The position numbers and the translations under genes are program-made. The notes beneath the pieces are model-generated. The model saw only the letters and a program-made list of their open reading frames with translations. It searched no databases and was not told where the DNA came from. Shown here in pieces: positions 1,863 to 62,415 of a DNA stretch of 64,000 nt (position 1 is the first letter of the stretch; each line of letters begins with the position of its first letter). This DNA comes from Lewinellaceae bacterium SD302 (lineage in GTDB: Bacteria; Bacteroidota; Bacteroidia; Chitinophagales; Saprospiraceae): the NCBI GenBank assembly GCA_002591745.1, contig PDLQ01000002.1, positions 124,001 to 188,000 of the forward strand. Direction: 5' to 3'.

Positions 1863-1880
1863 CCTTGCTACTTTGCCAGG
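1863..1880 (+). repeat. Dispersed GCTACTTTG element (intergenic copy)
   Basis: This copy reads CCTTGCTACTTTGCCAGG. It is one of 18 exact GCTACTTTG 9-mers in the window and lies 77 bases upstream of the next start codon, on the same strand. Confidence 0.7.
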
Positions 1881-1956
1881 AAAAAACAGTTAAATCGCAA
1901 CAAGCTGAAAGTCTCACGGTTAGGCAGTTATTCTTCACCAAATAAATTTTTCAAAA

Positions 1957-2181
1957 ATGAGTAAGGAAACAACTACCTGGCCCGATTTAGCCATTGGCCT
2001 ATACGAAAAGCTAACCGGTCGGGGTGCCGAAATCAGCTATGAGTTCGACAACTTTGAACTTCACGTACCCCGTAGCACCGATAGTGACATGAACACGGAC
2101 AACATGGCCCCCTGGAAAATGAACGGTACACTCCGCATCACGACGCGTGACAAGCAAAAAGGTGATAAGGCCAATGGTTAG
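1957..2181 (+). CDS. Small protein of unknown function (74 aa)
   Basis: I do not recognise this family. The protein begins with a tryptophan-containing amphipathic helix (WPDLAIGLYEKLTGR), followed by two or three predicted beta strands (AEISYEFDNFELHVP, MNGTLRITTRD) and a charged tail. There is no signal peptide, so a cytoplasmic location is likely. Its stop codon overlaps the ATG of the next gene (ATGGTTAG), so the two are probably translationally coupled. Codon usage resembles the neighbours, which supports a real gene. It lies upstream of two secreted proteases but may be unrelated to them. Confidence 0.6.
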   Translation: MSKETTTWPDLAIGLYEKLTGRGAEISYEFDNFELHVPRSTDSDMNTDNMAPWKMNGTLRITTRDKQKGDKANG

Positions 2182-2494
2182 CCTAACTAAAACAGCCATT
2201 GAGGGAGACCTGATCATTACGGCTCCCGATGGCACCGGTGCTGTTTCTATTAGTGGAGGCAGTACCGGTCCTTTACGGGTGAATGCTTCGGATTATCCGA
2301 CCTTGCGCCAACTTGCCGCTGACGCCCGACAGGCTTCTCCCGCCCTGGGACCCCGTACGATCGCCGGACAGCGTAATCCATTCGGTCAGGAAATTGCGGT
2401 ACTGGTAGATGATAAACCCGTAGTCAGTTGGCCGGCAGGGGGGCGGATAAGGGTAAACAACCTGGTCCGGGCACTACGTTTTTTGGCAGGATAA
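2174..2494 (+). CDS. Small protein of unknown function (106 aa)
   Basis: The start is placed at ATG 2174, which overlaps the previous gene's last codons; an in-frame start at 2147 is possible but less economical. The protein is rich in Gly, Ala and Pro with alternating short strands (DLIITAPDGTGAVSISGG) and ends in a basic segment (GGRIRVNNLVRALRFLAG). It has no signal peptide or membrane helix. I do not recognise the family. Tight overlap with the upstream gene suggests the two products act together. Confidence 0.55.
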   Translation: MVSLTKTAIEGDLIITAPDGTGAVSISGGSTGPLRVNASDYPTLRQLAADARQASPALGPRTIAGQRNPFGQEIAVLVDDKPVVSWPAGGRIRVNNLVRALRFLAG

Positions 2495-2558
2495 GATTGA
2501 CCCGAGCTGGTAAAACGAAAATCTTTAATTTAGCAGGGACAAAAGTCTACTCCCGAAC

Positions 2559-4100: not shown

Positions 4101-4131
4101 ACCAATGCATCAAGCCTGTCGTCTGATTTAT

Positions 4132-4150
4132 CTGGCTAACAAAGTAGCAA
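4132..4150 (-). repeat. Dispersed GCTACTTTG element (intergenic copy, minus orientation)
   Basis: The plus strand reads CTGGCTAACAAAGTAGCAA. The element sits between the two protease genes, 22 bases before the second start codon, and points against the direction of transcription, so it is not a promoter for that gene. Confidence 0.7.
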
Positions 4151-7572: not shown

Positions 7573-7590
7573 TTGCTACTTTGTTAGCCC
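7573..7590 (+). repeat. Dispersed GCTACTTTG element (intergenic copy)
   Basis: This copy reads TTGCTACTTTGTTAGCCC, 59 bases upstream of the phoH-like start codon, on the same strand. Here a promoter role cannot be excluded. Confidence 0.65.
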
Positions 7591-8743: not shown

Positions 8744-9667
8744 ATGGACCGCCTAGCCTATCGTCAGTTTGTCGCCGCCTACCCGGGCCTTCCGGTCTTC
8801 TATCGGGATTGGTGGCTGGACGCGGCCTGTGGTGAGGACAATTGGTCTTACGCCCTGGCCAAGGATAAGGATGGTGCCCCGGCTTCGATCTGGCCCTACT
8901 ACCACCGTAAGAAGTTCGGCGGGTTGATTCGTATGATCGATAAACCCCCGTTCAGCCCTCATTGCGGCCCATTTATTACCTCCGCCCCGGAAAGCATGAA
9001 CCCCGCAAAGGTACTTGATCGCCAGAAGCGGCTGGTGGATCAATTGACGGAGCAACTGCCGGCTTTTACTTACGGCCGGGCGGGAACGAACTATGATTTC
9101 GGGGCTACTCATCCCCTCCGACTGGCCGGTTGGCGGGCGCAGCAGCTCATCAGTTACCGGCTGCGAACGGATCTCTATTCCTTGCCCGATCTATACGAGC
9201 GATTGAGTGGTAAAGTCAGGACTAATTTACGTGATCACGACCAGTTAAGTTCGCAGATCGAGCCATTGACCGACTTTGGGGTTTTGGCGGATTTGCAACA
9301 AAGGATTTTAGGCTATCAAAGTAGCAATGACCTGAAAGTGCTGAGGCGGCTTTACTCCGTGACGAACGAAAAAGATGGTGGTATCGGCTGGCTATTCCGG
9401 GCTGTGGATGGGGAGCCGACGGCAGTGATCTGGTTGGCCTACGACCAGAATTCTGCCTACTTACTCGTAGCCGCCGCTGACCCGAAAAGACGCCAGGAGG
9501 ATCAGGCGATTACCCAGCTGATCTGGCGAGCGATAAACTGGTGCAACGAGCAAAAAATAATCTTTGATTTTGAAGGTAGTGCTCTGCCAGGGGTAGAGCA
9601 ATTTTACCGAGGTTGGGGCCCGGAAGAGGGACAATATCTACTGTTAAGCAAAGGACCTGGTTGGTAA
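8744..9667 (+). CDS. GNAT/FemAB-like acyltransferase
   Basis: The 307-residue protein resembles the Acetyltransf_6/FemAB-like group: a first half with SIWPYYHRKKFGGLIRMIDKPPFSPHCGPF and a second half with a GNAT-like core (GWLFRAVDGEPTAVIWLAYDQNSAYLLVAAADP), ending in FDFEGSALPGVEQFYRGWG, the phrase usual near the end of such proteins. It has no signal peptide or membrane segment, so it is cytoplasmic. The acceptor substrate is unknown. It starts 6 bases after phoH. An internal copy of the dispersed element (CAAAGTAGC at 9317-9325) encodes part of GYQSSNDL. Confidence 0.7.
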   Translation: MDRLAYRQFVAAYPGLPVFYRDWWLDAACGEDNWSYALAKDKDGAPASIWPYYHRKKFGGLIRMIDKPPFSPHCGPFITSAPESMNPAKVLDRQKRLVDQLTEQLPAFTYGRAGTNYDFGATHPLRLAGWRAQQLISYRLRTDLYSLPDLYERLSGKVRTNLRDHDQLSSQIEPLTDFGVLADLQQRILGYQSSNDLKVLRRLYSVTNEKDGGIGWLFRAVDGEPTAVIWLAYDQNSAYLLVAAADPKRRQEDQAITQLIWRAINWCNEQKIIFDFEGSALPGVEQFYRGWGPEEGQYLLLSKGPGW

Positions 9668-11366: not shown

Positions 11367-12071
11367 TTGTCTTCTACCCGGCCAGTTATTGATGTGATTA
11401 TTCCTGCTTTCAACGAAGAGGAGAGTATCGGTCTGGTCGTTACCGAGATTCCACGCGAATTGACCAGGGAGATCATCGTTTGTAACAACAACAGTCAGGA
11501 TCGTACCGCCGAAGTTGCCCGTGCCGCGGGAGCCACGGTAGTGGACGAGCAGAGGGCCGGTTATGGCAGTGCCTGCTTGGCAGGGATGGCTCATATTCTG
11601 GCCAAACCCACCAATAAGCAGCCGGATATCGTCGTTTTTCTGGACGGCGACCACAGCGATTATCCCGAGCAAATGGCCGAGTTGATCGCACCGATCATCA
11701 ATCAAGACGCCGATCTGGTCATCGGTAGCCGGGCCACCGGAGATCTGGAAAAGGGGGCCATGCAGCCCCAGCAAATCTTTGGTAACTGGCTGGCGACCAC
11801 GCTAATCCGCATCCTCTACAAATACGAATTTACCGATCTGGGACCCTTCCGGGCCGTCAAGTGGCCGGTACTTCGTGACCTGGGCATGAACGACCCCGAT
11901 TTCGGCTGGACAGTCGAAATGCAGGTACGCGCCGCCAAAGCCGGTTTGCACTGTGTCGAAGTTCCCATGCGTTACCGCCGCCGTATTGGTACGTCCAAAA
12001 TTTCGGGTACCGTAAAAGGTACCTTTCTGGCGGGCCATAAGATCCTCTGGACGATATTTAAACTACTATAG
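11367..12071 (+). CDS. Family 2 glycosyltransferase, dolichyl/polyprenyl-phosphate mannose synthase-like
   Basis: A 234-residue GT-A fold enzyme with N-terminal VIIPAFNEEESIG, the nucleotide-sugar motif EIIVCNNNSQDRTAEVA and the metal-binding FLDGDHSDYPEQM, ending in RYRRRIGTSKISGTVKG. There is no C-terminal membrane domain, only a short hydrophobic end (ILWTIFKLL). Small GT2 enzymes of this type usually transfer a hexose to a polyprenyl phosphate or a lipid at the inner membrane. The start is TTG at 11367. The next gene, a processive-type GT2, begins 11 bases after the stop, so the pair probably contributes to one glycolipid or polysaccharide pathway. Confidence 0.85.
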   Translation: MSSTRPVIDVIIPAFNEEESIGLVVTEIPRELTREIIVCNNNSQDRTAEVARAAGATVVDEQRAGYGSACLAGMAHILAKPTNKQPDIVVFLDGDHSDYPEQMAELIAPIINQDADLVIGSRATGDLEKGAMQPQQIFGNWLATTLIRILYKYEFTDLGPFRAVKWPVLRDLGMNDPDFGWTVEMQVRAAKAGLHCVEVPMRYRRRIGTSKISGTVKGTFLAGHKILWTIFKLL

Positions 12072-12082: not shown

Positions 12083-13666
12083 ATGGGTGTTTTAGCCATC
12101 TTTGCCGTCACCGTTTATACGATATCCTTACTGTACATCACGGTCTACTGCGTGCTGCAGTTTAACCTTTTGTACAACTACAAAAAGGATAACCCCATGC
12201 CGGGAGACTCCGAAGCCGAAGCCATTCTGGAGGAGGCCGCTGTGGGTTCCCGCAGGCTGAATAGCCGTAAACTGGTAGCGGCCGGTGATGTGGAAAACGG
12301 AAGCGTGGAAGAATCCTTCGAGGCCTGGCCCATGGTGACCGTTCAGTTGCCCATTTTCAATGAATATTACGTCATCGAACGCCTCATCGACGCCGTAGCA
12401 GCTTTCGATTATCCCCGCGATCGTTTCGAAATTCACATCCTCGATGATAGCAACGACGAGACGGTAGAGGTGGTGGCTAACAAAGTAGCAGAGCTGAAGG
12501 CGCAAGGATATAATATCGAGCAAATCCAACGCGAAAAACGGCAGGGCTTCAAAGCCGGAGCCCTAAAAGACGGCACTAAAGTAGCCAATGGAGAATTCCT
12601 GGCCATTTTCGATGCTGACTTTGTGCCCGAGCCAGACTTCTTGCGTCGCACCATTCCTCATTTCAACGATCCATCCGTCGGGGTGGTCCAGACTCGCTGG
12701 GAGCACATTAATCGTGACTACAGTTTGATCACCAAGCTCCAGGCCCTGCAACTCAACGTCCATTTCACCGTCGAGCAAGTCGGTCGGATGAAGGGTGGGC
12801 ACCTTCTCCAGTTTAACGGCACGGCCGGTATCTGGCGCAAGAAAGCCGTCGAAGCCGGTGGCGGATGGGAAGCTGATACCCTTACCGAAGACCTCGATCT
12901 CAGTATCCGCACCCAGCTGGCCGGTTACCGCATTAAATTCCTGGAACAGGTCGGTTCCCCCGCCGAACTGCCGGTGGAAATGAACAGTTTCAAGAGCCAG
13001 CAGCACCGCTGGATGAAGGGCGGCGCCGAAACCTGCCGCAAAATGCTGCCCTCCGTCTGGAACAGTGATCTCGCCTTCGGCCACAAAGTACACGCCACCA
13101 GCCACCTGATGGGCAGTACGATCTTCCTGTTCGTCTTTGTCTGTGGAGTGTTCAGCGTCCCTGTTTTACTACTCTTCGGCGAATTGGTGGACATGGGCTT
13201 TAGCAAGAATTTCTTTGCCATCTTCCTGATTGGCCTGCTCAGCATCATTGCTATTTACTACACGGCCAACGTGCAGTCGCCGGCCAATCAGGACAAGAAC
13301 TTTCTGCGTTCGTTCTTTCGGTTTCTGTACTTGTTTCCATTATTTCTGGCGCTTTCCATGGGCTTGGCCCTACACAATACGGTAGCCGTCATTGAAGGCT
13401 ACCGGGGGAAGAAAAGCCCCTTCGTTCGCACCCCTAAATTCAACATTAATTCTATCCGCGATAAGATCAAGACCAGCAAATACCTCACCGGTAAACTCAA
13501 CTGGATCACCATTGGCGAAGGTTTATTGGCCATTTATTTCCTGGCAGCGGTGGGCGCGGCTTTCTATCTGCAGAACACCACCTTCATCATCTTCCATGGT
13601 TTGCTGGCCTTGGGGTATGGCACTATTTTTTATTACAGTGTGCGGCATTTGGGGATTGGGAAGTGA
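12083..13666 (+). CDS. Membrane-bound family 2 glycosyltransferase (cellulose/mannan synthase-like)
   Basis: The 527-residue protein has an N-terminal membrane helix (about 3-28), then a cytosolic GT2 domain at about 85-330 and four or five C-terminal helices (about 345-435 and 485-525). All processive-GT motifs are present: VQLPIFNEYYVIERLI, HILDDSNDET, FDADFVPEPDFL, the TED in LTEDLDLS and the Q(Q/R)xRW in QQHRWMKGG. The resemblance is to CslA/CslC-type glucan or mannan synthases. The polymer is not determined by the sequence, and no PilZ domain is present. An internal copy of the dispersed element (12481-12489) encodes VANKVAEL. Confidence 0.88.
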   Translation: MGVLAIFAVTVYTISLLYITVYCVLQFNLLYNYKKDNPMPGDSEAEAILEEAAVGSRRLNSRKLVAAGDVENGSVEESFEAWPMVTVQLPIFNEYYVIERLIDAVAAFDYPRDRFEIHILDDSNDETVEVVANKVAELKAQGYNIEQIQREKRQGFKAGALKDGTKVANGEFLAIFDADFVPEPDFLRRTIPHFNDPSVGVVQTRWEHINRDYSLITKLQALQLNVHFTVEQVGRMKGGHLLQFNGTAGIWRKKAVEAGGGWEADTLTEDLDLSIRTQLAGYRIKFLEQVGSPAELPVEMNSFKSQQHRWMKGGAETCRKMLPSVWNSDLAFGHKVHATSHLMGSTIFLFVFVCGVFSVPVLLLFGELVDMGFSKNFFAIFLIGLLSIIAIYYTANVQSPANQDKNFLRSFFRFLYLFPLFLALSMGLALHNTVAVIEGYRGKKSPFVRTPKFNINSIRDKIKTSKYLTGKLNWITIGEGLLAIYFLAAVGAAFYLQNTTFIIFHGLLALGYGTIFYYSVRHLGIGK

Positions 13667-13688: not shown

Positions 13689-13740
13689 TTGCTACTTTGC
13701 TAGTCAAAAAAGGAATGAATCGGGTGGCTTCAAAGTAGCA
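13689..13740. repeat. Inverted pair of dispersed GCTACTTTG elements
   Basis: TTGCTACTTTGCTAGTC at 13689-13705 faces GGCTTCAAAGTAGCA at 13726-13740. The 10-base cores TGCTACTTTG and CAAAGTAGCA are perfect inverted repeats and could form a stem with a loop of about 30 bases. The pair lies between the convergent genes ending at 13666 and 13831. Confidence 0.65.
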
Positions 13741-14966: not shown

Positions 14967-14985
14967 CATTGCTACTTTGCCAGAC
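14967..14985 (+). repeat. Dispersed GCTACTTTG element (intergenic copy)
   Basis: This copy reads CATTGCTACTTTGCCAGAC and lies between convergent genes, where no promoter is expected. Confidence 0.65.
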
Positions 14986-20709: not shown

Positions 20710-21234
20710 ATGACTACCAACCAGGAAACTCCCTTAATCAATCGCGTCGCCAATTCAGGCCTCGTTACCATCGAACTGGAAAATTTTTATCCTACCGGTG
20801 AGCTTGCCCGCTTTGACCTAAAGGACTACCTCTATATGGAGCTGATCCTGAGGGAAAAGGACTTTCGGGCCGCCCTGGCGGAGCACGATTGGGAGCAATA
20901 CCGCGGTAAGCATTTGCTGGTTTTTTGTTCCGCCGATGCCATCATCCCGGTTTGGGCCTATATGTTGGTGGCTAGCAAAGTAGCAGGGCTGGTTGCGAGC
21001 ATTTACCAAGGAGAGGAAGCCGAGTTTATTCAGGCCTACTTACTAGCGGCCGTAGCGGACCTGAAGCCGGAAGATTATCAGGATAAACGACTGGTCATTA
21101 AGGGCTGTAGTGATAAACCCGTGCCCGCAGCCGCATACCTGGCCGTTACGGCTAAGTTGCAGCCCGTAGCGAAGTCGATCATGTACGGGGAGCCATGCAG
21201 TACGGTTCCGGTGTACAAGAAGCCAAGGAGCTAA
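20710..21234 (+). CDS. DUF2480 family protein
   Basis: A 174-residue cytoplasmic protein matching the uncharacterised Bacteroidota family DUF2480. The hallmark phrases are all present: INRVANSGLVTIELENFYP, FDLKDYLYMELILREKDFR, HDWEQYRGK and CSADAIIPVWAYMLVASK. The conserved Cys-containing VIKGCSDKPVPAAAYLA lies near the end. Function is unknown. A copy of the dispersed element at 20976-20984 encodes VASKVAGL. The gene begins 11 bases after a hairpin array and is followed by the period-8 ladder. Confidence 0.85.
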   Translation: MTTNQETPLINRVANSGLVTIELENFYPTGELARFDLKDYLYMELILREKDFRAALAEHDWEQYRGKHLLVFCSADAIIPVWAYMLVASKVAGLVASIYQGEEAEFIQAYLLAAVADLKPEDYQDKRLVIKGCSDKPVPAAAYLAVTAKLQPVAKSIMYGEPCSTVPVYKKPRS

Positions 21235-22611: not shown

Positions 22612-25194
22612 ATGAAAAATATCTTTTTAACGCTGCTTCTGCTCGCCACCAGCTTTGCTACTTTGTTAGCCCAACCCCTCGCCGGTTCCTCTAAAACGGA
22701 ACAGTTGCTCGCCACGGCCGATCGGGAAATGGAACTACACAGCTACGACCAGGCCCTGGAAAAATACATGGAGGTCTACGAGCGGGACGAGGACGATAAG
22801 ACCCTGATCCCCACCATCGCCGAACTGAATTACAGGCTGCGCGATTATGGTGCCGCCACCCGCTGGTATAAGCAGGTTTTCCGCCGGATGGACAGCGCCG
22901 ACACGACTTACAACCACCACCGTTTTTACTACGGCCGGGCCCTGAAAATCATGGAAAAGCACGATGAGGCCATCATGGCCCTTCAGGACTTTTTGCGCCA
23001 CGCCGAGGATGGCCCGATGAAGACCCTGGCCGAGCGGGAGATTACCGGTGCCGAAATGGCCCAGAATACCCCCGAGTCGACCAGCGAAGTGGTCTTGGAA
23101 GATGCCGGCCGAAAGGTCAATAGTTTATTTAGTGAGTACTCGCCGACCCTGTCCAAGGATAACGTGCTGTACTATGCTTCGGCGGACGCCAATGAGGTCA
23201 TCATCCCTGAGGACGTGAACGACCCGGCAAACTTCATTCGCATTTTCATGAGTACCCAGAAGGAAGGCCGTAAGGGCAAAAAAGAATGGGACCGCCCCGA
23301 GGCCCTGAGCGTAGACGTGAACCGCCCCGGCGTACATACCGCCAACCCCGCCCTGAGCGATGATGGCCGCAAATTGTACTACAACCGCATTGAACTGGAG
23401 AGCCAAAAAATGGTCTCTGCCAAGATCTACGTCAGCGACGTGGACGATAATGGCTGGAAATCCGGTAACGAGGTCGCGGGCGGTGTCAACGGCGATTTCC
23501 TGGCGTTACAACCGGTGATGGGAGAATTATTCGGTAAAGAGGTGATGTTCTTCGCTTCCGACATGCCCGGCGGCTATGGCGGTATGGATATTTACTACGC
23601 TACTCTCGACGGCGAAGATAATTTCGGTGAACCCGTAAACCTGGGTGAGCGGATCAATACGGTAGGCGACGATAAGATGCCTTTCTACTTCGACGGAACC
23701 CTCTACTTCAGTACCACCGGCCAACCTACCCTGGGGGGCTACGATGTCTATTACTCCGTCTGGAATGGTAGCGAATGGAGCAACGCCGAGAACATGGGCC
23801 CTGGTTTCAATACCAGCCAGGATGACCTGAGCTTCAAACTCTACGGCGACGGTTACCGCGGCTTTCTGACGAGTAACCGTAAAGGCGGTCGTTCCATCAA
23901 GAGCAAAACCTGCTGCGACGATATTTACGAATTCGAGATAGCCCAGCTTTACGCCGATCTGGTAGTGGGCGTCTTCACCGAAGAAAGGAAGGGGCTGTTG
24001 GGTGCTACGGTCAACCTGATTCCCGTCCAGCCTAACTCCCAATCGCCACTGGGAGGTGCGGACACCCAAACCAAAGAAAAAGGCAACCGCTTCGACTACG
24101 GTCTGGAGCTGGAGAACGCTTACCTGGTCACCGCCAGCCACCCCGACTATTACCCGGATACCTTCGCCTTTGATATTCTTGGACTGGAGGAAAGCAAGAC
24201 CGTGGAGCACCGCTTCTTTCTGAAGGCCAAGCCGGTACCACCGCCGGAGCCGATCTACGATACAATTACGCCCAACCAGGCTATTCGCTTGGAAAATATC
24301 CTGTACGACTTCAATAAGTCATCCATCCGTCCATCTTCGGAGGTTGACCTCAACCAACTGTACAATATCTTGGATAGTATGCAAGATATTACTTTGATTG
24401 AGCTAAGCGCACATACTGATGTTCGTGGTACGGATAGCTATAACATGACGCTTTCTAAGCGCCGGGCACAAAGTGCACGCCGCTGGCTGATCAACAAAGG
24501 AATTGATGCTAAGCGGTTAAAAGCGGAAGGTTATGGGGAGACTATCCCTCAAACCATCACTGAGAGCTTGGCAAGACGGTACGACTTCCTGAATGTAGGG
24601 GACGTACTCACGGAGGAATTCATCAACTCACTGCCAAATGAAGAACAACAGGAGGCTGCCCATGAGTTAAACCGACGTACAGAATTCAAAATTCTGGAAG
24701 GACCGACCACCTTTATCATGAAGCGGATCATCAAGCAGGAAGTCAAGGAACAACCCGAGCGCAATAGTCTGCCCATCGAAGTACAGACCACCCCCGCTAA
24801 GGTTTCCAACGACAGCCTGAAAATCAGTCACCTCTCCAGCCTGGTTGGCCAAACGGATCTGAGCGGACTGCCTGTGTTGGATTTTGACTTTCGGGAGTAT
24901 AACCTCGGTCCGGTAAAAAAGGGTGAAAAGCGCGAATTCGATTACGCCTTTACCAACCGCGGCGACGTAGCAGCCAAAGTGATGATGATCTCCGCTTGTG
25001 AGTGTACGACCGTCGATCACGATAATAGCAAGACCTACCAGCCCGGTGAGAGCGGGGTGATCAAAGTGGTCTTCGACAGCGAAAGCAAAGACGAAGACGA
25101 AACGATCACTATTGACATCTTCCTGGAGCAAAGTGACAAGAATGACATGCCCATCGTAGAAGCGCTGGAGTACAGTTTTAAGCTGGTGAAGTAA
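22612..25194 (+). CDS. TPR-PD40-OmpA protein with C-terminal DUF1573-like domain (PorE-like)
   Basis: The 860-residue protein has a signal peptide (1-20), tetratricopeptide-like helices (about 28-150) and PD40/WD40-like propeller repeats (about 165-440: SEYSPTLSKDNVLYYAS, ALSDDGRKLYYNR, MFFASDMPGGYGGMDIYYA). A carboxypeptidase-regulatory-like segment lies at about 450-540. The OmpA peptidoglycan-binding domain follows at 560-700 (LYDFNKSSIRPSSEVDLNQL, SAHTDVRGTDSYN, LSKRRAQSARRWL). The last ~110 residues resemble DUF1573 (FREYNLGPVKKGEKREFDYAFTNRGD, ACECTTVDHD), an unusual addition. The protein probably anchors the PorP/SprF partner to peptidoglycan. A dispersed-element copy (22657-22665) lies within the signal peptide codons. 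Confidence 0.88.
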   Translation: MKNIFLTLLLLATSFATLLAQPLAGSSKTEQLLATADREMELHSYDQALEKYMEVYERDEDDKTLIPTIAELNYRLRDYGAATRWYKQVFRRMDSADTTYNHHRFYYGRALKIMEKHDEAIMALQDFLRHAEDGPMKTLAEREITGAEMAQNTPESTSEVVLEDAGRKVNSLFSEYSPTLSKDNVLYYASADANEVIIPEDVNDPANFIRIFMSTQKEGRKGKKEWDRPEALSVDVNRPGVHTANPALSDDGRKLYYNRIELESQKMVSAKIYVSDVDDNGWKSGNEVAGGVNGDFLALQPVMGELFGKEVMFFASDMPGGYGGMDIYYATLDGEDNFGEPVNLGERINTVGDDKMPFYFDGTLYFSTTGQPTLGGYDVYYSVWNGSEWSNAENMGPGFNTSQDDLSFKLYGDGYRGFLTSNRKGGRSIKSKTCCDDIYEFEIAQLYADLVVGVFTEERKGLLGATVNLIPVQPNSQSPLGGADTQTKEKGNRFDYGLELENAYLVTASHPDYYPDTFAFDILGLEESKTVEHRFFLKAKPVPPPEPIYDTITPNQAIRLENILYDFNKSSIRPSSEVDLNQLYNILDSMQDITLIELSAHTDVRGTDSYNMTLSKRRAQSARRWLINKGIDAKRLKAEGYGETIPQTITESLARRYDFLNVGDVLTEEFINSLPNEEQQEAAHELNRRTEFKILEGPTTFIMKRIIKQEVKEQPERNSLPIEVQTTPAKVSNDSLKISHLSSLVGQTDLSGLPVLDFDFREYNLGPVKKGEKREFDYAFTNRGDVAAKVMMISACECTTVDHDNSKTYQPGESGVIKVVFDSESKDEDETITIDIFLEQSDKNDMPIVEALEYSFKLVK

Positions 25195-28149: not shown

Positions 28150-31128
28150 TTACTCCAACAAAAACTCTAACTCTCGCTTATCAAAATCCAGCTTTCCATT
28201 CTTTCCGATAATATCTTCGGCTAACTGCGCTTTCTTTTCCTGCAATTTTACGATCTTCTCTTCGATCGTATCCTTGCTGATGTATTTGCGGGCGAAAACT
28301 GTTCCCTCCCGTCCGATCCGGTGCGCCCGGGCAATGGCCTGTTGCTCTATGGTCGGATTCCACCAGGGATCTAGGACGAAGACGTAGTCGGCGGCAGTCA
28401 GATTAAGGCCGGTGCCGCCACTCTTGATGGAGATAAAGAAAGCTTGTAAATCGTCGTTTTCCTGAAAGCGCTTTACCTCTGCGGCTCTTTTTGCGGCTGT
28501 TACACTACCACTGATCCAGGCATAACTATAGCCTTTCTCGTCGAAAGCTTTTTTGAATAGTTCAAGGTGGGTCACAAAAGAGCTGAAAAACAGGGCTTTG
28601 TGGCCGCTTTTGCGGATGACCTCCCACTGCTCCATCACTTCGTCGAATTTACCGCTTCCTTTGCCGTAATCGGCCGAAAGCAGCGCGGGGTGGTTGGCGA
28701 GTTGCCGTAATCGCGTCAGGGTCTGTACAACCAGCATCCGGTACTGGCCGTCTCCGGGCGCGAAGTTCTTAAGTAGGTGGTTACGGGCGGCTGATTTTTC
28801 TTTTTCGTAGCGCCGACGTTGCTCCGCAGCCATTTCGCAAAAGAAGTGCTGGATATGTAGTTCCGGAAGGTCTTTGGCCACTTCCCCCTTGGTGCGCCGT
28901 AAGAGGTAGGGAGCGACCAGCTGACGGAGTTGTTGCTTCTTCTCTTCACTATCCGCCTTCTCGATGGGCTGGATAAATTCTTTCTTGAAAAAATTGTAGG
29001 ACTTCAGTAGACCGGGATTCAGGAACTGCATCTGCGACCATAGGTCGGATAAGGAATTTTCTATCGGGGTGCCCGAAAGGCTGATCTTATGAGCAGCATT
29101 AAGTTCATTAACGGCTTTGAATACCTTACTCTGACGGTTCTTAATCTGCTGACTCTCGTCCAGAATAATGTAATTAAAGTCGAGATTCTCCAGTAGTTCC
29201 TTATCCCGCAGTGCAGTCTGATAAGTAGTGAGGATAACGTCGTAGCGGCGTAGTACCCTTACGTCCTTCAGTCGTTTTTGGCCGGTATGCCGCAGGGTGG
29301 TCAGTGACGGAGCAAATTTTTTGATCTCACTTTCCCAGTTATAGACCAGCGAGGCGGGTAAGACTATCAAGGCGCGCAGTGGAGCAAGAAACTCTTCGTC
29401 CTCGGCGGCTGCATGCGCACCGAATAGGTCAAGTTGAGGGGCGGGAGTGCCAGCAGTCGCCGTATCCTCGGATGCCTCCAGGGTCAATTGCTCTTTAGCG
29501 TAGAGAAGTACGGCAATAGTCTGTAATGTTTTACCCAGTCCCATGTCATCGGCCAGGCAGGCCCCCAGTCCCTGGTGATGATGTTGCACCAGCCACTGGG
29601 CTCCGGCGAGCTGGTAAGGGCGTAATGTTGCTTTAAGGGCGTCACTGGGGGTAAAGTTCTCGGCTTCTTTGCGGGCCTCTTCCGGAGAGGCGAGTTCCGG
29701 CGCGATCTGGTCGAGCAGGGTGTAATGACTTTTGGTAAGTTTAACCTGGTCACGTTCGACCTGGGCGAAACGCAAAATCTCTTCGTAACGGGCTGACCAC
29801 TCTAATGGGATTAGGAAAAAACGCCCGTTCGGCAAAGGATAGAGACGCTCGCCTTTGCGAATGTACTTGGCTATACGCGCGAAGGGAATCCGGAAATCAC
29901 CCACTTTTACCTCTCCCCGCAGATCGAACCAGTCTCGATCATCAACCACATTAACGGTCAACTGGCCGGACTGTAAAGACATTGGTTTATCACCGTCGAC
30001 CACCGGGTGGGGAACGTGAAAACCGGCTTGGTTAAGGGCAAAGCGGTTGTCGATCAGCCACTGAAGAACGCCGAGCGGCTGCTCCGCAACGTTTTTGCGT
30101 TCGGGTAAGAAAAACTGGGTAGAGGGTACCGTTTGCAGATTCATTCGCTCCAGTTTGCGGATGAAGGCAGTTTCCTGCGCTGGATTACGTTGAATTCGGG
30201 TGATACTAACTTCTTCTCCCTCCAGGTCCAGTAAAGTCTGTTGTTCTCGCTTCTCGTTCCAGCCGAAGCTGGCCTGGCCATAATCCATACGGGGGAAGAG
30301 ATAGTAGCGATCCTCCAGTGGGTGCAGGGTAGCTTCTAATCGACAGGCCAGCAATTGCTGTTTCTGAGTGACGGCAAAGCCTTCCGCTTCAATAGCTACT
30401 TTGCTAACAACTTTGGCAATGAAGGTCTTGAAGTATTTGGTTACCTGGGCGGCGGGAATGACCACTTCATCCTTGGTCAGGAAGGGTTTAACCACGTAAC
30501 CGTTCAGGTGGGCTACCCGATGCAATTGACGATCGATCAGCAACCATCCCGGCGCAGGGTGATTGGTCAGGGGGATAATATTATGGTGCCGTAAGTTAAG
30601 TCGATCACCTTCCGTCGTTTGTAGCTCAAAGCGGTAGTGAACCCCTTTCTCCTGCTTGTCGAATGACAGCAGTGGCTGTAAAGCGGTGCCGTCAACCTTT
30701 ACTGTGAAGTCTTTGGCGAGTACTCGCCGCTCCAGGTTCAGGGTGAGTTGAAAGGCCTGCTCCACTATAATATTAATCAATTCATCCAGGCGGCGGTGTA
30801 CGTAGCGTTGTACAGCGGGTCTCTGCTCTTTATTGGTGAGGGCCAGCAGGTCCGTAAGTTTGGGGACTTTACGGGCCTTTCCTTTAAATGCCAATGTGAT
30901 GGCCGGCACTTGTAATTCTTCAATCAGGGTGAAACAGCGTTGGTGTTCGGGTGTAAGCTCCAGGTGAAAAGCTCCGATGGTCTCCGCCGTTGCTTTTTGT
31001 TGAACGTGAGCCAGCAAACCGGCTACGTCGGAACTGATTACGTAGGCTTCGGGAGCGTAAATGCCGGGGTGAATCTCGAAAAGATTATAAACAATGGATA
31101 CTTGTTGGTCGGTGGCGGTTTCCGGCAT
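28150..31128 (-). CDS. SNF2-family DEAD/DEAH-like ATPase (bacterial Swi2/Snf2 helicase)
   Basis: The ATG at 31128 gives 992 residues; a TTG 33 bases upstream is possible. The N-terminal half is a bacterial SNF2-associated region. The helicase core begins at about 510 (LRPYQLAGAQWLVQHH), with Walker A ADDMGLGKTLQTI (Lys533) and motif II DESQ (Asp657). SLSGTPIENSLSDLWSQM and the C-terminal GGTGLNLTAADYVFVLDPWWNPTIEQQAIARAHRIG motifs are also present. These proteins are DNA translocases that remodel protein-DNA complexes; the partner is unknown. A dispersed-element copy is at 30395-30403. Confidence 0.92.
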   Translation of the reverse strand: MPETATDQQVSIVYNLFEIHPGIYAPEAYVISSDVAGLLAHVQQKATAETIGAFHLELTPEHQRCFTLIEELQVPAITLAFKGKARKVPKLTDLLALTNKEQRPAVQRYVHRRLDELINIIVEQAFQLTLNLERRVLAKDFTVKVDGTALQPLLSFDKQEKGVHYRFELQTTEGDRLNLRHHNIIPLTNHPAPGWLLIDRQLHRVAHLNGYVVKPFLTKDEVVIPAAQVTKYFKTFIAKVVSKVAIEAEGFAVTQKQQLLACRLEATLHPLEDRYYLFPRMDYGQASFGWNEKREQQTLLDLEGEEVSITRIQRNPAQETAFIRKLERMNLQTVPSTQFFLPERKNVAEQPLGVLQWLIDNRFALNQAGFHVPHPVVDGDKPMSLQSGQLTVNVVDDRDWFDLRGEVKVGDFRIPFARIAKYIRKGERLYPLPNGRFFLIPLEWSARYEEILRFAQVERDQVKLTKSHYTLLDQIAPELASPEEARKEAENFTPSDALKATLRPYQLAGAQWLVQHHHQGLGACLADDMGLGKTLQTIAVLLYAKEQLTLEASEDTATAGTPAPQLDLFGAHAAAEDEEFLAPLRALIVLPASLVYNWESEIKKFAPSLTTLRHTGQKRLKDVRVLRRYDVILTTYQTALRDKELLENLDFNYIILDESQQIKNRQSKVFKAVNELNAAHKISLSGTPIENSLSDLWSQMQFLNPGLLKSYNFFKKEFIQPIEKADSEEKKQQLRQLVAPYLLRRTKGEVAKDLPELHIQHFFCEMAAEQRRRYEKEKSAARNHLLKNFAPGDGQYRMLVVQTLTRLRQLANHPALLSADYGKGSGKFDEVMEQWEVIRKSGHKALFFSSFVTHLELFKKAFDEKGYSYAWISGSVTAAKRAAEVKRFQENDDLQAFFISIKSGGTGLNLTAADYVFVLDPWWNPTIEQQAIARAHRIGREGTVFARKYISKDTIEEKIVKLQEKKAQLAEDIIGKNGKLDFDKRELEFLLE

Positions 31129-42932: not shown

Positions 42933-43460
42933 TTACTTATTGAGGATTATTTGCAGGTGCCCCAGATGGTGGCGGCCGTGCCATTCGTATTGCCCGAGTA
43001 AACTGGCAAGATTCACCACCTGTTCGTTGCTAGGGTGGTGGCAGGGGCGTTTCCAGGTTTCCAAGCTGAGGGCACTTAAAGTGAGGGTGAGTCTGCGGTG
43101 AATAGCGGAAAGCATATTTTGGCTGACAAAGTAGCCGTGCCGATTATCGGGAAGCTTAGCCCAGGCGTTTTCATCGTAGGGACGAAGTGTTGGGTTGTCT
43201 TCCGTCAGCGTAAGTTTAAAACGCTGATAGGCATTCAGGTGGCTATCGGCTAAGTGGTGAATGAGCTGGAGTGCTGTCCATCCTCCCGGGCGGTAGGTTT
43301 CGTTCAGTCTCCCGGCAGCTTCCAGGCGCAGGGCAGTACCCGCGATATGACCGGGTAGTTCCGCAAAACTATTCAGAAGGTCGAAGATCAACTGTGGAGC
43401 GTAATTGGAAGCAGCCTCGAAGCGACCGATAGGGTAGCGAAGGTGATTGGTGTTGTTCAT
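42933..43460 (-). CDS. DinB/YfiT-family putative thiol transferase
   Basis: The ATG at 43460 (MNNTNHLRYPIGRF) gives 175 residues; the longer open frame upstream runs across the start of the divergent channel gene and is rejected. YfiT/BstA hallmarks are LRYPIGRF, YRPGGWTALQLIHHLADSHLN and EYEWHGRHHLGHL-like YEWHGRHHLGHLQII. The three His ligands of the DinB fold are present. Relatives bind a divalent metal and transfer bacillithiol or act as hydrolases. Whether this organism makes bacillithiol cannot be told from the window. It contains an internal dispersed element (43127-43135). Confidence 0.82.
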   Translation of the reverse strand: MNNTNHLRYPIGRFEAASNYAPQLIFDLLNSFAELPGHIAGTALRLEAAGRLNETYRPGGWTALQLIHHLADSHLNAYQRFKLTLTEDNPTLRPYDENAWAKLPDNRHGYFVSQNMLSAIHRRLTLTLSALSLETWKRPCHHPSNEQVVNLASLLGQYEWHGRHHLGHLQIILNK

Positions 43461-51381: not shown

Positions 51382-51880
51382 TGTTTTGTCTTTTGGGTAA
51401 GCAAAGATAGGGGTTTGAATTTTGACTGACAAAGTAGCAATGCTCTTGTCTGCACCATCGAGCTTACGAGCGGGCCCGGCGAGTATTATTATTAACTCAA
51501 CTGAAGTCGTCAGGCCGCAAATCTTCCGACATCGATTTATCGTACAGGCGACGGGCCATCATACACCTTGCTACTTTGCAGCCATAAAAACCTCACACTT
51601 AATAAGGACCGCACCGGTGTAGAACCCAGGGACGAAGGCCTGTGATGAAATTATTTAAAGGATTTGATTCCCCGGTGGAGGACCTCCACAAGAGGCTTTT
51701 TGCAAAACTGAGCATACATACATCCGACAAACGGAATTTAGAGCTTGTTTGTAAAAAACTCCATTGTATACTTAGGACAGTTTCACCCTCGCATTTATAG
51801 CAACCCATTTCTAGGAATGCCCGTTATTGTAGGCCAGCTATTTTTTAGCTAAACGGGCGAATGCCCAAAAAATAATAATC
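51382..51880. other. 499-base intergenic region with inverted GCTACTTTG pair and a palindrome
   Basis: GACTGACAAAGTAGCAATG (51425-51443) and CTTGCTACTTTGCAGCC (51567-51583) form an inverted pair 120 bases apart, pointing outward. GTGGAGGACCTCCAC at 51675-51689 is a 7-bp palindrome. AGAGCTTGTTTG near 51741 recurs near 55719. No believable gene was found; the open frame at 51599-51808 on the minus strand has no coding-like composition. Confidence 0.6.
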
Positions 51881-52569: not shown

Positions 52570-54984
52570 TTGAATAAACCAAAAATCAAAATCTCCGCAC
52601 ATCCCTCCTTTGACGAAGGCGACGGCGAAATGCTGCCCTTCATCGCCCTGGACGGTAACGAAGAAAGCCTGAATGCCAGTCAACTGGCTGAATCGCTGCC
52701 TATTCTGGCATTGAAAAATACCGTACTGTTCCCGAGTAACGTACTACCGATCACGATTGGCCGTGACCGCTCCATCCGGGCCATCGAGAAGAGCCACGGG
52801 GGGGATAAACTCATTGCTGTTTTCTCTCAAAAGGATACCAAGGTCGAAGACCCCGGTGACGAAGACTTGTTTCGTTTTGGCACGGTGGCCAAACTGATTC
52901 GGATGCTCAAGATGCCGGACGGTAGTACGACTGCCATTTTGCGGGGCGTCCAGCGCGTGGAGCGCGTCAGTATGACCGGGACCGAGCCGATTCTGGAAGG
53001 AGAGGTGCGGCCGCTGGACCACGATGAGATCAGCGATCAAATGACCTTTGAGGCTACCGTAGCCAGTGTGCTGGACCACGCCAAAAAGGCCATTGAGTTG
53101 TCGCCAAACTTACCTTCGGAGGCTGCCATGGTATTGGACAATATCGAGGACCGCAGCTTCCTGCTCAACTTCATTGCCGGTAATCTGAACATGAACGTTG
53201 AGCAAAAGCAGGGGGTACTGGAAGAAAATAGCCTGGAAGCAAAGGCCACTTCATTGTTGGGGCAGATCCAAAAAGAGCTTCAGTTTCTGGAATTGCGCGA
53301 CCAGATCGAAAACAAAACGCGGGGTGATATTGAAAAACAGCAGCGGAACTACTACCTCAATCAGCAGATGAAAGCTATCCAGGAAGAACTGGGGCAGAAT
53401 CCGCAGAAAGACGACGTAGACCGATTGAATAAGCGGGCCAAGGAAAAAGACTGGCCGGAGACGGTCGCCAAGGTCTTTGAACGTGAGTTGGACCGCCTGA
53501 AGCGGATGAACCCCCAGGTCGCCGAATTCAGCGTACAGCTCAGTTACCTGGAAACCCTGCTGGACCTTCCCTGGAACGAAACGACCGCCGATGACTTCGA
53601 CCTGCAAAAGGTAGAGAAGGTCCTGGACGATGACCACTATGGACTGGAAAAGATCAAGGATCGTATCCTGAGTCACCTGGCCGTCCTGAAACTGAAGGGA
53701 GATATGAAAGCCCCGATCTTGTTGTTGCTCGGCCCTCCGGGAGTGGGTAAGACGAGTTTGGGTAAATCAGTAGCCCGGGCATTGGGGCGGAAATACATCC
53801 GCATCAGCCTGGGTGGCTTGCACGACGAAAGTGAAATTCGTGGGCACCGTAAAACCTACATCGGGGCGATGCCGGGGCGGATCGTGCAGTCGTTGAAGAA
53901 AGCTGGTACGTCTAATCCGGTTTTCATTCTGGATGAGATCGACAAGGTGGGTAATTCTCACCGGGGTGACCCCAGTAGTGCACTGCTGGAAGTGCTGGAC
54001 CCGGAACAAAACGATAGCTTCCACGACAACTACCTGGACGTGGACGTAGACCTGAGTAAGGTACTGTTCATTGCTACGGCCAATAACATCAACAGTATAC
54101 AGCCGGCTTTGCGGGACCGGATGGAGATCATCTCGGTCAGTGGCTACAGCGAAGAGGAAAAACTGGAAATTGCCAAGCGTCACTTATTGAGCAAGCAACG
54201 TAAGGAACACGGGTTGAAGGCGTCTCAGGTCAAAATACCCATTGCTACTTTGCGAGCCATCATCAGCAACTACACGCGGGAAAGCGGGGTGCGTAACCTG
54301 GATCGGCGACTGGCCGGTATCATGCGCTACGTCGCCAAGCAGATCGCGATGGAAAAGGCGACCAGCGTGAACGTGACGGCCGATCTGTTGCACGAAGCTT
54401 TGGGGCCGCGACCCTTTGAGAGTGAAAAGTACGAAGATGCCAAAGTACCGGGCGTAGCCATCGGCCTTGCCTGGACCAGTGTGGGTGGCTCTATTCTGTT
54501 TATCGAGGCCCGTACCCATCCGGGGAACGGCAAAATGCAGCAGACGGGTAGCTTGGGAGACGTGATGAAGGAGAGCGCCCTGACGGCCCTTACTTACCTC
54601 AAATCCAAAGCCGGCGATCTGGATATCGAGCTGGAGCGTTTTGCCAAGACCGACATTCACCTTCACGTACCGGAAGGCGCTACGCCCAAGGACGGCCCCA
54701 GTGCCGGCATTACGATGCTGACTGCTTTGGCCAGTGCCTTTACCGGCCGATCCGTTAAACCCAATGTGGCTATGACCGGGGAGATTACGTTGCGGGGTAA
54801 GGTACTTCCCGTGGGCGGCATCAAGGAGAAATTACTGGCGGCCCGGCGGGCGGGAATGAAGGAAATTATCCTCTCTTCGGCCAACCGCAAGCACGTTAGT
54901 GAGATCGAAGAGCGTTATCTTAAGCAACTGAAGATTCATTACGTAGACCGGATGGACGAGGTGTTGGAACTGGCATTAGTATAG
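52570..54984 (+). CDS. lon: ATP-dependent protease La (Lon)
   Basis: The likely start is TTG at 52570 (NKPKIKISAHPSFDEGD), giving 805 residues; the upstream frame to 52468 has Cys- and His-rich sequence unlike Lon. The N-terminal LON domain is at about 40-235 (LPILALKNTVLFPSNVLPITIGR). The AAA+ Walker A is GPPGVGKTS (388-396). The protease domain has the Ser-Lys dyad: Ser711 in KDGPSAGITM and Lys752 in PVGGIKEKLLAARRAG. It degrades misfolded and regulatory cytosolic proteins. An internal dispersed element lies at 54244-54252. Confidence 0.95.
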   Translation: MNKPKIKISAHPSFDEGDGEMLPFIALDGNEESLNASQLAESLPILALKNTVLFPSNVLPITIGRDRSIRAIEKSHGGDKLIAVFSQKDTKVEDPGDEDLFRFGTVAKLIRMLKMPDGSTTAILRGVQRVERVSMTGTEPILEGEVRPLDHDEISDQMTFEATVASVLDHAKKAIELSPNLPSEAAMVLDNIEDRSFLLNFIAGNLNMNVEQKQGVLEENSLEAKATSLLGQIQKELQFLELRDQIENKTRGDIEKQQRNYYLNQQMKAIQEELGQNPQKDDVDRLNKRAKEKDWPETVAKVFERELDRLKRMNPQVAEFSVQLSYLETLLDLPWNETTADDFDLQKVEKVLDDDHYGLEKIKDRILSHLAVLKLKGDMKAPILLLLGPPGVGKTSLGKSVARALGRKYIRISLGGLHDESEIRGHRKTYIGAMPGRIVQSLKKAGTSNPVFILDEIDKVGNSHRGDPSSALLEVLDPEQNDSFHDNYLDVDVDLSKVLFIATANNINSIQPALRDRMEIISVSGYSEEEKLEIAKRHLLSKQRKEHGLKASQVKIPIATLRAIISNYTRESGVRNLDRRLAGIMRYVAKQIAMEKATSVNVTADLLHEALGPRPFESEKYEDAKVPGVAIGLAWTSVGGSILFIEARTHPGNGKMQQTGSLGDVMKESALTALTYLKSKAGDLDIELERFAKTDIHLHVPEGATPKDGPSAGITMLTALASAFTGRSVKPNVAMTGEITLRGKVLPVGGIKEKLLAARRAGMKEIILSSANRKHVSEIEERYLKQLKIHYVDRMDEVLELALV

Positions 54985-55950: not shown

Positions 55951-55958
55951 GACCTGTC

Positions 55959-60525: not shown

Positions 60526-60719
60526 ACGATGACCGAATGGATTGGTGGTCTGCTGCGACCATATCGATCATCGGGGCATTGATTTTGAGCCATTTTGCCA
60601 TTCACTATCCTGCCTAGTGTAAAAAGCCAGTTAATTTGTTGAGACGGATGACCGAAATCAATGGCCATGTCCGTCACATGGGCTATTTTTGCCCTTTAAC
60701 CACCAATGACCAAAATATT

Positions 60720-61382
60720 ATGGAGAGCCGTAATGCCAAGTTCAAATCGAACAAGGATGGTGAAGCCCGGATGTTCGAAAACAATTTTCTGGATAGCCTG
60801 ACCAAGACCCACATCGCTATTCCAGTGACTATTTTCTTTGTTTACGCCATCGGTTTACTGTACCGTACTTACTTGAATACCGACCTGGGCTTCCTGACCG
60901 TAGCCGGGGTCTTTCTGGCCGGCACTTTCCTGTTTACCTTCGCCGAGTACGCCATTCATCGCTGGGTTTATCACCCACCCCACGACGCCAGCGAGGGCTA
61001 CAAGGAGTTTACTTACAAGGTCCACGGCTTACACCACGATTACCCCAAAGACAAGCAGCGCCTGGCCATGCCACCGGTACTGGCAGTAATTATAGCCACC
61101 TTGCTGCTCTTTCTCTTTGAATTGGTGCTCAACCAGTACGGTGATGCCTTTGCTGCCGGTTTCGTGACGGGCTACGCGATGTACCTGCTCATTCATTACA
61201 GTATTCACATCTTCGCGCCGCCGAAGAACGTATTTCGTATGCTTTGGGTGTACCACAGCATTCACCACTACAGCGAAGATGAAATCCTTTTTGGAGTTTC
61301 CAATCCACTCTGGGATTTTATATTCGGCACCATGCCACGCAACAAGAAAGACCGTAAAATGGTACGGGAAATTCACCGCTAG
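60720..61382 (+). CDS. Fatty acid hydroxylase / sterol desaturase family protein
   Basis: The ATG at 60720 is preferred over upstream frame starts; it gives 220 residues. Four transmembrane segments and the di-iron His clusters EYAIHRWVYH, HGLHHDYP, LLIHYSIHIF and YHSIHHYS fit the FA2H-like 2-hydroxylases. These hydroxylate fatty acyl chains of sphingolipids or lipid A-type lipids in the membrane. A TATTTTTG -7 box lies at 60684-60691. The stop codon overlaps the GTG of the next gene by one base, indicating an operon. Confidence 0.85.
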   Translation: MESRNAKFKSNKDGEARMFENNFLDSLTKTHIAIPVTIFFVYAIGLLYRTYLNTDLGFLTVAGVFLAGTFLFTFAEYAIHRWVYHPPHDASEGYKEFTYKVHGLHHDYPKDKQRLAMPPVLAVIIATLLLFLFELVLNQYGDAFAAGFVTGYAMYLLIHYSIHIFAPPKNVFRMLWVYHSIHHYSEDEILFGVSNPLWDFIFGTMPRNKKDRKMVREIHR

Positions 61383-61717
61383 TGGCCGGTCCCCGCAACT
61401 CACATTACGTAGAAGACGTTTACGCCGTTACCCAGTCGATTCCCCCGGGGCGGATAACCACTTATGGTGCAATAGCTGATTTTCTTACGCTAGGTTCCGC
61501 CCGTATGGTCGGCTGGGCCCTCAACAAAGTGACGCCGGGCGATCAGGTGCCCGCCCATCGTGTGGTCAATCGTAAAGGAGAACTCAGCGGCCGGACGCAT
61601 TTTAAGCCGCCTTCCGCAATGCAAGAGCGGCTGGAGGCCGAAGGAATAGTAGTAGTTGATGACAAGGTCCGCGATTTCAAAGAACTTTTCTGGTCACCCA
61701 CCGAATTGCTCCCGTGA
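61382..61717 (+). CDS. Alkyltransferase-like protein (MGMT fold with Ala in place of the active Cys)
   Basis: The 111-residue protein matches the DNA-binding domain of O6-alkylguanine-DNA alkyltransferase: VYAVTQSIPPGRITTYGAIADFL, ARMVGWALNKV and PAHRVVNRKGELSG. In active MGMT the motif is PCHRV; here it is PAHRV, so alkyl transfer is not possible. Such alkyltransferase-like proteins bind alkylated guanine and hand it to nucleotide excision repair. The start is GTG, overlapping the previous stop. Its own TGA overlaps the next GTG start. Confidence 0.88.
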   Translation: MAGPRNSHYVEDVYAVTQSIPPGRITTYGAIADFLTLGSARMVGWALNKVTPGDQVPAHRVVNRKGELSGRTHFKPPSAMQERLEAEGIVVVDDKVRDFKELFWSPTELLP

Positions 61718-62415
61718 AGAGTATCATCATTGAATCTGCCACTGAGAAATGCAGCGTAGCGGTCGCCGACGGCGATCAGCTACTTTCTTTCGTCCTGGCT
61801 GAAGCCCCCCACCAGCACGCCAGTCACCTGACCGTTTACGCCCAACGGGCATTGCGGGAAGCCGGTTTAAGGCTGATCGATATTGAGGTAGTCGCCCTCG
61901 GGCATGGCCCGGGCAGTTTTACCGGCCTGCGGGTAGGTGCCGCCGTAGCCAAAGGCTTCTGTCTGGCTTTACCAAAACTTAAGTTCCTCACGATTGATAG
62001 CCCGTTGGCCCTGACCAAACACTTAAAGAGTAGGGTAGGGAAATCAGAAAATAAAGAAATCTACTTACCTACGGTAAACAGCAGGCGGGGTGAAGTATAC
62101 GCACAAGCCTACCTGACCAACGGCGAAACTATCGGCGAATTACGCTCGGAAGTCCTGAACGAAGCAGCCTTTCCGGAAATTCAGGCAGATGTTACTGTTC
62201 ACGTTGGGGGTAGTGGAACTAACAAAGTAGCAGAACTGATGGCCGGCGATCCCCGGGATTTTCGGTTTCATCCGGAGATCATGGCTACAGCAGACATTTT
62301 GCTGCCACTGGTCTCTGCAAAGATCGCCACCGGGGCTTTCGAAGACTATGCCAGCTACGAGCCATTGTATTTAAAACCACCGTTTGTGACGAAGAGTACA
62401 AAAAAACTGCTCTAG
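61714..62415 (+). CDS. tsaB: tRNA threonylcarbamoyladenosine biosynthesis protein TsaB
   Basis: The 233-residue protein has the ASKHA-fold signatures of TsaB: IIIESATEKCSVAVADGD and LGHGPGSFTGLRVGAAVAKGFCLAL. It works with TsaD and TsaE to make the t6A modification at position 37 of ANN-decoding tRNAs. The start is GTG 61714, overlapping the upstream stop by 4 bases. An internal dispersed element (62223-62231) encodes TNKVAEL. Confidence 0.92.
   Translation: MKSIIIESATEKCSVAVADGDQLLSFVLAEAPHQHASHLTVYAQRALREAGLRLIDIEVVALGHGPGSFTGLRVGAAVAKGFCLALPKLKFLTIDSPLALTKHLKSRVGKSENKEIYLPTVNSRRGEVYAQAYLTNGETIGELRSEVLNEAAFPEIQADVTVHVGGSGTNKVAELMAGDPRDFRFHPEIMATADILLPLVSAKIATGAFEDYASYEPLYLKPPFVTKSTKKLL

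Follow-up and report, generated by a model that had tools for sequence, protein, structure and literature searches.

Why should one nonanucleotide recur 18 times within 64 kb of a bacterial genome, on either strand and both inside and between unrelated genes? This is the question raised by the window studied here, i.e. the whole 64-kb stretch of Lewinellaceae bacterium SD302 (G000:C60:124001-188000, from the assembly G000 of 5,478,864 bases in 147 contigs), in which a sequence-only reading had singled out the dispersed motif GCTACTTTG. We followed this motif through its own genome and through 20 other Neolewinella genomes (Bacteroidota; hereafter congeners, G001 among them, 21 genomes with G000). 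The genes of the source genome, as we read them, are likewise those of a Lewinella-like bacterium. On balance we lean, if only slightly, towards GCTACTTTG being the core of a predicted ~25-bp, two-block, non-palindromic recognition site that would act as a DNA-uptake-type self-signal, read directionally, common to Neolewinella and spelled in a dialect of its own in G000.

An exact recount returned all 18 copies at the positions and on the strands originally given, against a mean of 0.37 and a maximum of 4 in 100 dinucleotide shuffles (about 0.5 had been estimated before) and approximately one copy expected in the window under an order-3 Markov model. The division into eight copies inside genes and ten between them was likewise recovered with a crude gene caller. 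Nor is the motif confined to the window or close to expectation genome-wide: copies are scattered throughout the 5.48 Mb of G000, with 770 on the forward and 763 on the reverse strand (1,533 in all, about one per 3.6 kb, both strands together), while the motif read backwards occurs 43 and 37 times (80 in all). With a preceding T, the counts are 675 forward and 669 reverse, as opposed to 9 and 7 for the backwards control. Shuffles, Markov model and genome counts thus rule out chance or codon usage as the cause of this abundance, the latter as the sequence-only reading had maintained.

The conserved flanks described at the outset, TT-core-YYAGYC, are real, yet the site extends beyond them. Its fuller consensus, derived from 130 copies in 464 kb (8.5%) of G000, reads C-N-Y-T-GCTACTTTG-(YY or A)-AGYC followed by an A-rich tract, with C at position -4 in 88% of copies, Y at -2, T at -1 and either YYAGYC or AAGYC on the 3' side (GCTACNTTG as spelled in this genome). 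The core is strict: the same sample holds, besides its 130 perfect cores, 140 cores with a single mismatch, which is no excess over the ~144 expected under the order-3 Markov model. Among cores with fitting flanks, 87 are perfect and 14 carry a single mismatch, 12 of these at base 6, so that, base 6 apart, only two near-misses stand beside the 87 perfect flanked copies. Decay products of the core are therefore nearly absent in G000, and perfect cores with fitting flanks outnumber single-mismatch ones, a trait expected of uptake sequences. Two of the 18 window copies fit the flank rule on neither side; the copy at 62223 misses it narrowly and that at 30395 clearly, and the latter may be a chance match.

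Counting in related genomes, as the sequence-only reading had proposed, gave a divided answer, since the motif of G000 is not enriched there and a differently spelled one is found instead. TGCTACTTTG stays below its backwards control in 20/20 congeners (1-12 copies each). In 80-kb samples of ten congeners, CGCRGGTGC (i.e. GCACCYGCG) was prominent in most, and genome-wide, 19 of the 20 congeners carry a surplus of TGCACCYGCG, with 140 to 1,369 copies compared to 6 to 48 for the backwards control; there is no excess in G001 (35 vs 23 backwards) or in G000 itself (15 vs 14). The densest large genomes (G014, G002, G005) carry a copy every 4.5-5.2 kb and the sparsest (G007, G016, G004) a copy every 24-34 kb, all of these being undercounts because the position of the leading T is often G in some species. 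The two strands are more evenly balanced in their counts than random assignment would predict (chi-square 6.9, 20 degrees of freedom, lower tail 0.003), in a test devised after the counts were known. Beyond Neolewinella, 59 genomes from other genera or families hold at most 65 copies of TGCACCYGCG each, the counts being somewhat above the backwards control in a few, namely G034 (65 vs 13), G061 (39 vs 9) and G023 (30 vs 4), and no such motif was recognised in 81-100 kb from each of four other genera of the family (G034, G021, G023, G037). A 24-mer of the congener motif matched 88 stretches of the GTDB collection; the 80 that were listed comprise 77 with Lewinella or Neolewinella in their title and three from a single Bacteroidia metagenome bin. 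A 19-mer in the window's spelling had no exact match in a collection of genome contigs that may lack records of the window's own genome.

The two motifs are built alike. Congener sites consist of C(-4), GCACCYGCG, usually three (sometimes four or five) bases and then GCGCC or a similar block, so that both motifs have a C four bases upstream, a core of the form GC..C...G, a tolerant sixth base (mostly T or C in congeners) and a second block past a short variable spacer. Aligned by eye, TGCACCTGCGTT and TGCTACTTTGTT have TGC..CT..GTT in common, and GCTCCNGCG, intermediate in form, is in excess in samples of G004 (26 vs 9.2 expected) and G017 (17 vs 6.8). From this we infer that GCTACTTTG and TGCACCYGCG are putative dialects of one genus-wide Neolewinella signal, and, if the signal is indeed one, related species here differ in dialect as is typical of uptake sequences. 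G001, with almost no copies of either motif and with none of the listed top k-mers in 80 kb resembling a dialect, is a candidate for natural loss or for a species in transition.

Besides its spelling, the motif is distinguished by how its copies are spaced: mutual avoidance over about 3 kb holds for copies on the same strand and not for copies on opposite strands. All 31 neighbour pairs in the G000 samples with a separation below 1,500 bp lie on opposite strands, as do 96 of 128 neighbour pairs overall. Within 3 kb, there are 14 same-strand and 69 opposite pairs (144 sites, base-6 variants with a fitting 3' flank also counted), compared to a mean of 41.3 same-strand pairs in strand shuffles, none of 2000 being as low. 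The corresponding figures for 15 congeners (80 kb each; a second block was required in all spacing analyses and cores lacking it were dropped) are 8 same-strand and 57 opposite pairs, with a shuffle mean of 30.7 and again 0/2000 as low, the shuffles not being independent trials. Around 82 anchors at other GTDB loci (from 80 of those 88 stretches, each distinct flanking sequence being counted once), two neighbours lie on the same strand and 39 on the opposite one. Per-strand spacing is even, with a coefficient of variation (CV) of 0.53 in G000 and 0.68 in congeners. Close pairs in G000 lie 23-314 bp apart, and their convergent/divergent asymmetry is inconsistent among samples: ten congeners have no convergent pairs below 1 kb (~6.7 expected) and seven divergent ones below 250 bp (1.7 expected), the 82 anchors have five convergent and 12 divergent sites within 1 kb, and G000 has four convergent and eight divergent pairs below 250 bp. 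The site, then, seems to be read in one direction.

Directional reading over a few kilobases is also what a Chi-like site would bring about, at which a nuclease of the RecBCD/AddAB type would stop degrading and start recombination and which, as a mark of self, phages would copy. Like E. coli Chi (GCTGGTGG), the motif is dispersed, directional and species-specific, its spelling differs between species and it is present in temperate phages (see below). Chi, however, clusters: under the same test, 300 kb of E. coli gave 53 same-strand and 42 opposite pairs within 3 kb and a spacing CV of 1.40, i.e. no same-strand avoidance. Moreover, 51/80 E. coli Chi sites fall on the leading strand, whereas G000 shows no replication-strand preference, with 119 leading and 116 lagging copies by GC skew, a weak proxy computed here from 40-kb stretches with a skew above 0.01. 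As the site here additionally has a second block at variable spacing and is denser outside genes, we rejected identity with Chi and regard a Chi-like function as improbable. The sequence-only reading had likened the motif to DNA uptake sequences, HIP1 and Chi-like sites; of these comparisons, that with an uptake-type spread stands, while those with Chi and HIP1 fall. HIP1 is a palindromic octamer and GCTACTTTG, as its letters show, is not palindromic.

Regarding placement, for which all figures rest on the crude gene caller, 62/130 sampled G000 copies lie outside genes, where only 12.2% of bases are found (a 6.5-fold density, binomial p about 4e-23). Copies are densest where neighbouring genes diverge (23 in 16.5 kb), and TACTTTG resembles the -7 box of Bacteroidota, both of which would suit a transcription signal, be it a promoter, a terminator or an element at the RNA level. 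Yet copies in genes are 29 sense and 39 antisense, those between co-directional genes have the same orientation in 18 and the opposite one in 15 cases, the close pairs do not suit such a signal, and the congener spelling GCACCYGCG is unlike a -7 box. The lack of orientation preference rules out a promoter, as had been claimed from the start, or a terminator, and we deem a transcription signal of any kind highly unlikely. Copies in genes are read mainly as A-T-L (23/68) or K-V-A (31/68).

How such copies come about can be seen at two coding sites of the window. The stretch around the copy in the Lon-type protease gene aligns without gaps to 20 congeners and that around the glycosyltransferase copy to 19; both copies therefore arose by substitution, and insertion of a small element is ruled out for the two. 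The stretch of the SNF2-family gene likewise shows no gaps against 18 congeners, which is a weak insertion test because its copy lacks the flanks, and the protein of gene 8744-9667, with only distant relatives in the genus, was left aside. The gap-free alignments argue against a very small mobile or REP-type (repetitive extragenic palindromic) repeat copied by a transposase (RAYT), to which we attach hardly any probability, even though many copies and inverted close pairs would agree with it and three motif copies (base-6 variants allowed) lie within 3.2 kb of the one Y1-transposase match in G000. G018 (95% complete) has no Y1 match yet 636 copies, the motif is no denser than usual around 30 Y1 loci (23 copies in 95 kb), and same-strand avoidance is not expected of such repeats; insertional spread alongside a Y1 transposase was accordingly discarded. 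Of note, inverted motif pairs (G000:C1 near 168787 and 196510, also L294 about 1100-1350) enclose a separate repeat with the common core GACCTCCGGTCCGA.GTACTCG, possibly a REP-type element, in one case near that same Y1 match.

Conservation at orthologous positions, proposed earlier as a check, was followed at the glycosyltransferase locus, where it applies to the congeners and not to G000. In a hypervariable linker, 14/19 congeners have a GC(A/T)CCNGCG core within the stretch shown (12/19 by the strict GCACCYGCG), and at site B, ~550 bp upstream inside the preceding gene, 13/19 keep their own motif via synonymous codon choice. G000 has neither of these sites and carries its own elsewhere, so that the switch at this one locus, as distinct from the genome at large, was not a rewriting of old sites. 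The idea that site B in the window had acquired the new spelling was considered and proved wrong: the match at 11525 is an old-dialect site one base off.

The motif is not restricted to chromosomes. TGCACCTGCGNCCGCGCC matched 59 stretches in a viral collection, many of them single matches in contigs of varied G+C that may be chance, and a subset with the full site. Among 13 viral records counted whole and chosen for their matches, three long IMG/VR contigs stand out: G080 holds 7 core copies over 38.7 kb (1 for the backwards control), G081 holds 9 over 44.6 kb (2) and G082 holds 9 over 30.9 kb (2). Two encode an integrase, a terminase and a head protease, and the third a terminase, a portal and a major head protein; these predicted genes mark all three as tailed phages, and the integrase marks two as temperate. 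The 22 strict copies on these contigs form one same-strand and eight opposite pairs within 3 kb (89/2000 shuffles as low). What they say about the host is partly circular because the host was inferred from the motif alone. Eight viral stretches with the window's spelling hold a single 9-mer each in the part examined and look like chance.

These phages would be at home in another explanation, namely a polar site for an intracellular chromosome-maintenance protein (segregation, compaction or repair loading) that recurs every few kilobases per strand on every resident replicon, temperate phages included. The phage contigs carry the site at approximately host density and roughly obey its spacing, and both the strict core and the even per-strand spacing of G000 are in keeping with such a role. 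Segregation and fork-linked sites, however, usually show a replication-strand preference, which is absent here; for one species to change its spelling, ~1,500 sites would have to be replaced; and G001 lives almost without the motif. We therefore consider chromosome maintenance rather unlikely, though likelier than the other rivals.

As for the uptake-type signal that we favour, the site would be kept on the chromosome as a self-tag, with each species using its own dialect. A putative receptor, i.e. a surface or periplasmic DNA-binding protein, would prefer site-bearing DNA, which would then be imported via ComEC and recombined, and sites would accumulate as site-bearing DNA is preferentially recombined back in, through drive and/or selection. 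Polarity could mean that one site serves one strand or direction over ~3 kb; a second site on the same strand would then be redundant and one on the opposite strand would not. A ComEC family gene (PF03772) is present in 21/21 Neolewinella genomes. An uptake role fits most observations, namely the strict core, the dialects, the permissive yet conserved places, the even spacing and the lack of replication bias, while polarity and phages leave room for an intracellular directional reader.

Several findings weigh against an uptake role. The ComEC family also occurs in 10/14 control genomes and is hence not diagnostic, and G001 retains its ComEC family gene though the motif is almost lost. Known systems based on the DNA uptake sequence (DUS) or the uptake signal sequence (USS) work via type IV pili, and a search with PF00437, which covers the ATPases of type IV pili and of type II secretion and was the sole pilus family used, turned up no complete pilus motor ATPase in any of the 21 Neolewinella genomes. 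Short matches of ~20-25 bits occur in 20/21 genomes, several just over the Pfam cut-off of 24.9, and none in G010; most fall in long frames resembling other ATPases, and the best of them in the genus cover ~80 positions of ~950-residue frames that look like UvrA. Full-length matches appeared only in G053 and G058, more distant relatives, among 50 genomes searched. The likeness between the G000 and congener motifs, aligned by eye, could partly be coincidence, and the spacing rule is strong rather than absolute, with 14, 8 and 2 exceptions in the three samples. USS uptake is reported to be independent of orientation (PMC1939737), at odds with the polar look here. Finally, phage contigs carry the host motif at about chromosomal density, so that foreign DNA is not short of it, unlike the recently acquired genes from which DUS are reported to be absent (PMC2397512).

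Comparison with known systems yields both agreement and difference. DUS of Neisseriaceae comprise eight dialects (PMC3630211), are read by the minor pilin ComP (PMC3868556) and sit in permissive regions yet are conserved (PMC2397512); neither DUS nor USS show a replication-strand preference (PMC1939737). Several such traits match our observations (PMC1626085, PMC2397512, PMC1939737, PMC3630211). As with DUS, the Neolewinella core of ~10 bp is abundant on either strand and free of replication bias (770/763 and 119/116 in G000), putative dialects occur within a clade, copies occupy permissive core-genome places, and the site is itself conserved. It differs from DUS in belonging to another phylum, in the missing full pilus motor ATPase, in a second block with variable spacer and in its occurrence in temperate phages, and is set apart by same-strand avoidance, as measured in Neolewinella and E. 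coli Chi only. Phylum, motor ATPase, same-strand avoidance and phages separate it equally from the USS of Pasteurellaceae, which come in AAGTGCGGT and ACAAGCGGT types with ANNNGCGGT in common and whose flanking segments lie about one helical turn apart (PMC1626085), whereas the Neolewinella spacer varies by one or two bases. Since no full pilus motor ATPase was found and foreign DNA is not free of the motif, we do not file it as a member of either class. Within the Bacteroidota, Riemerella columbina is reported to prefer its own DNA in transformation, in a paper that proposes frequent k-mers as putative DUS or USS and leaves their function open (PMC7965970); Neolewinella would share this preference, which is putative here. 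These k-mers aside, we found no uptake-type motif for Lewinella, Neolewinella or other Bacteroidota among the titles listed from the open-licence literature (at most 20 per listing), which does not establish its absence from print.

Table 1. Motif copies and the congener-motif place in the window. Flank fit refers to the flank rule; gene context is from a crude gene caller made for this analysis.
Feature	Position	Strand	Context and flanks
Motif copy	1867..1875	+	Intergenic (genes end 1728 / start 1957); 5' flank fits, 3' partly
Motif copy	4140..4148	-	Intergenic (4100/4172); both flanks fit
Motif copy	7575..7583	+	Intergenic (7489/7649); 3' flank fits
Motif copy	9317..9325	-	Inside gene 8744-9667 (+); both flanks fit
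Motif copy	12481..12489	-	Inside glycosyltransferase gene 12083-13666 (+; Pfam), codes N-K-V-A; gap-free alignment to 19 congeners
Motif copy	13691..13699	+	Intergenic, inverted pair with 13731; 3' flank fits
Motif copy	13731..13739	-	Intergenic, inverted pair with 13691; AAG spacing variant; both flanks fit
Motif copy	14971..14979	+	Intergenic (14934/15112); 5' flank fits
Motif copy	20976..20984	-	Inside gene 20710-21234 (+); both flanks fit
Motif copy	22657..22665	+	Inside gene 22612-25194 (OmpA/PD40 families, Pfam), near 5' end; both flanks fit
9-mer	30395..30403	+	Inside SNF2-family gene, minus strand (28150-31128 by caller; ORF to 31161); flanks misfit
Motif copy	34088..34096	+	Intergenic, inverted pair with 34234; both flanks fit
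Motif copy	34234..34242	-	Intergenic, inverted pair with 34088; 3' flank fits
Motif copy	43127..43135	-	Inside predicted gene 42933-43460 (-); 3' flank fits
Motif copy	51430..51438	-	Intergenic, inverted pair with 51570; both flanks fit
Motif copy	51570..51578	+	Intergenic, inverted pair with 51430; both flanks fit
Motif copy	54244..54252	+	Inside Lon-type protease gene 52570-54984 (Lon read from sequence), codes A-T-L; gap-free to 20 congeners
Motif copy	62223..62231	-	Inside ORF 61714-62415 (+); both flanks narrowly miss rule
Site B, congener-motif place	11525..11533	-	Own motif kept in 13/19 congeners; window one base off (CGCGGGAGC for CGCGGGTGC)

Elsewhere in the window (2559-7489), a papain-family peptidase gene with DUF4384 adjoins a gene with WD40 repeats and a caspase domain. 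The k-mer counts further brought up what looks like a CRISPR array in G006:C82, where several chained 12-mers are present 61-62 times within 80 kb, and were dominated in G005:C35 and G007:C2 by local short-unit repeats (AGGTTGC-type and TAGTCTTTTAG-type). In 100 kb of G037, from another genus of the family, TCGTAAGTCG occurs 8 times (0.09 expected) and TGACGTTGACC 7 times (0.03 expected).

Taken further than the uptake role itself, and only tentatively, the motif might represent a pilus-independent, directional code for self-DNA, with at most one tag per strand per ~3 kb, which would change wholesale between species and let temperate phages pass as self. In 2013, the need for an uptake sequence was called unique to Neisseria and Pasteurellaceae (PMC3630211). 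If true, the present reading would extend uptake-type codes beyond Neisseriaceae and Pasteurellaceae and add a strand rule to them. Bacteroidota that lack the pilus motor would then be an independent case, which could help to tell the features of uptake-driven accumulation from those of the pilus machinery. G000 represents a natural experiment in this regard: it shares the density of the densest congeners and the same spacing rule despite its other spelling, and these therefore look like properties of the process rather than of ancestry. The strand rule yields a direct, measurable prediction on the polarity of DNA import, and phages that carry the host tag suggest that it may matter for intracellular DNA, too.

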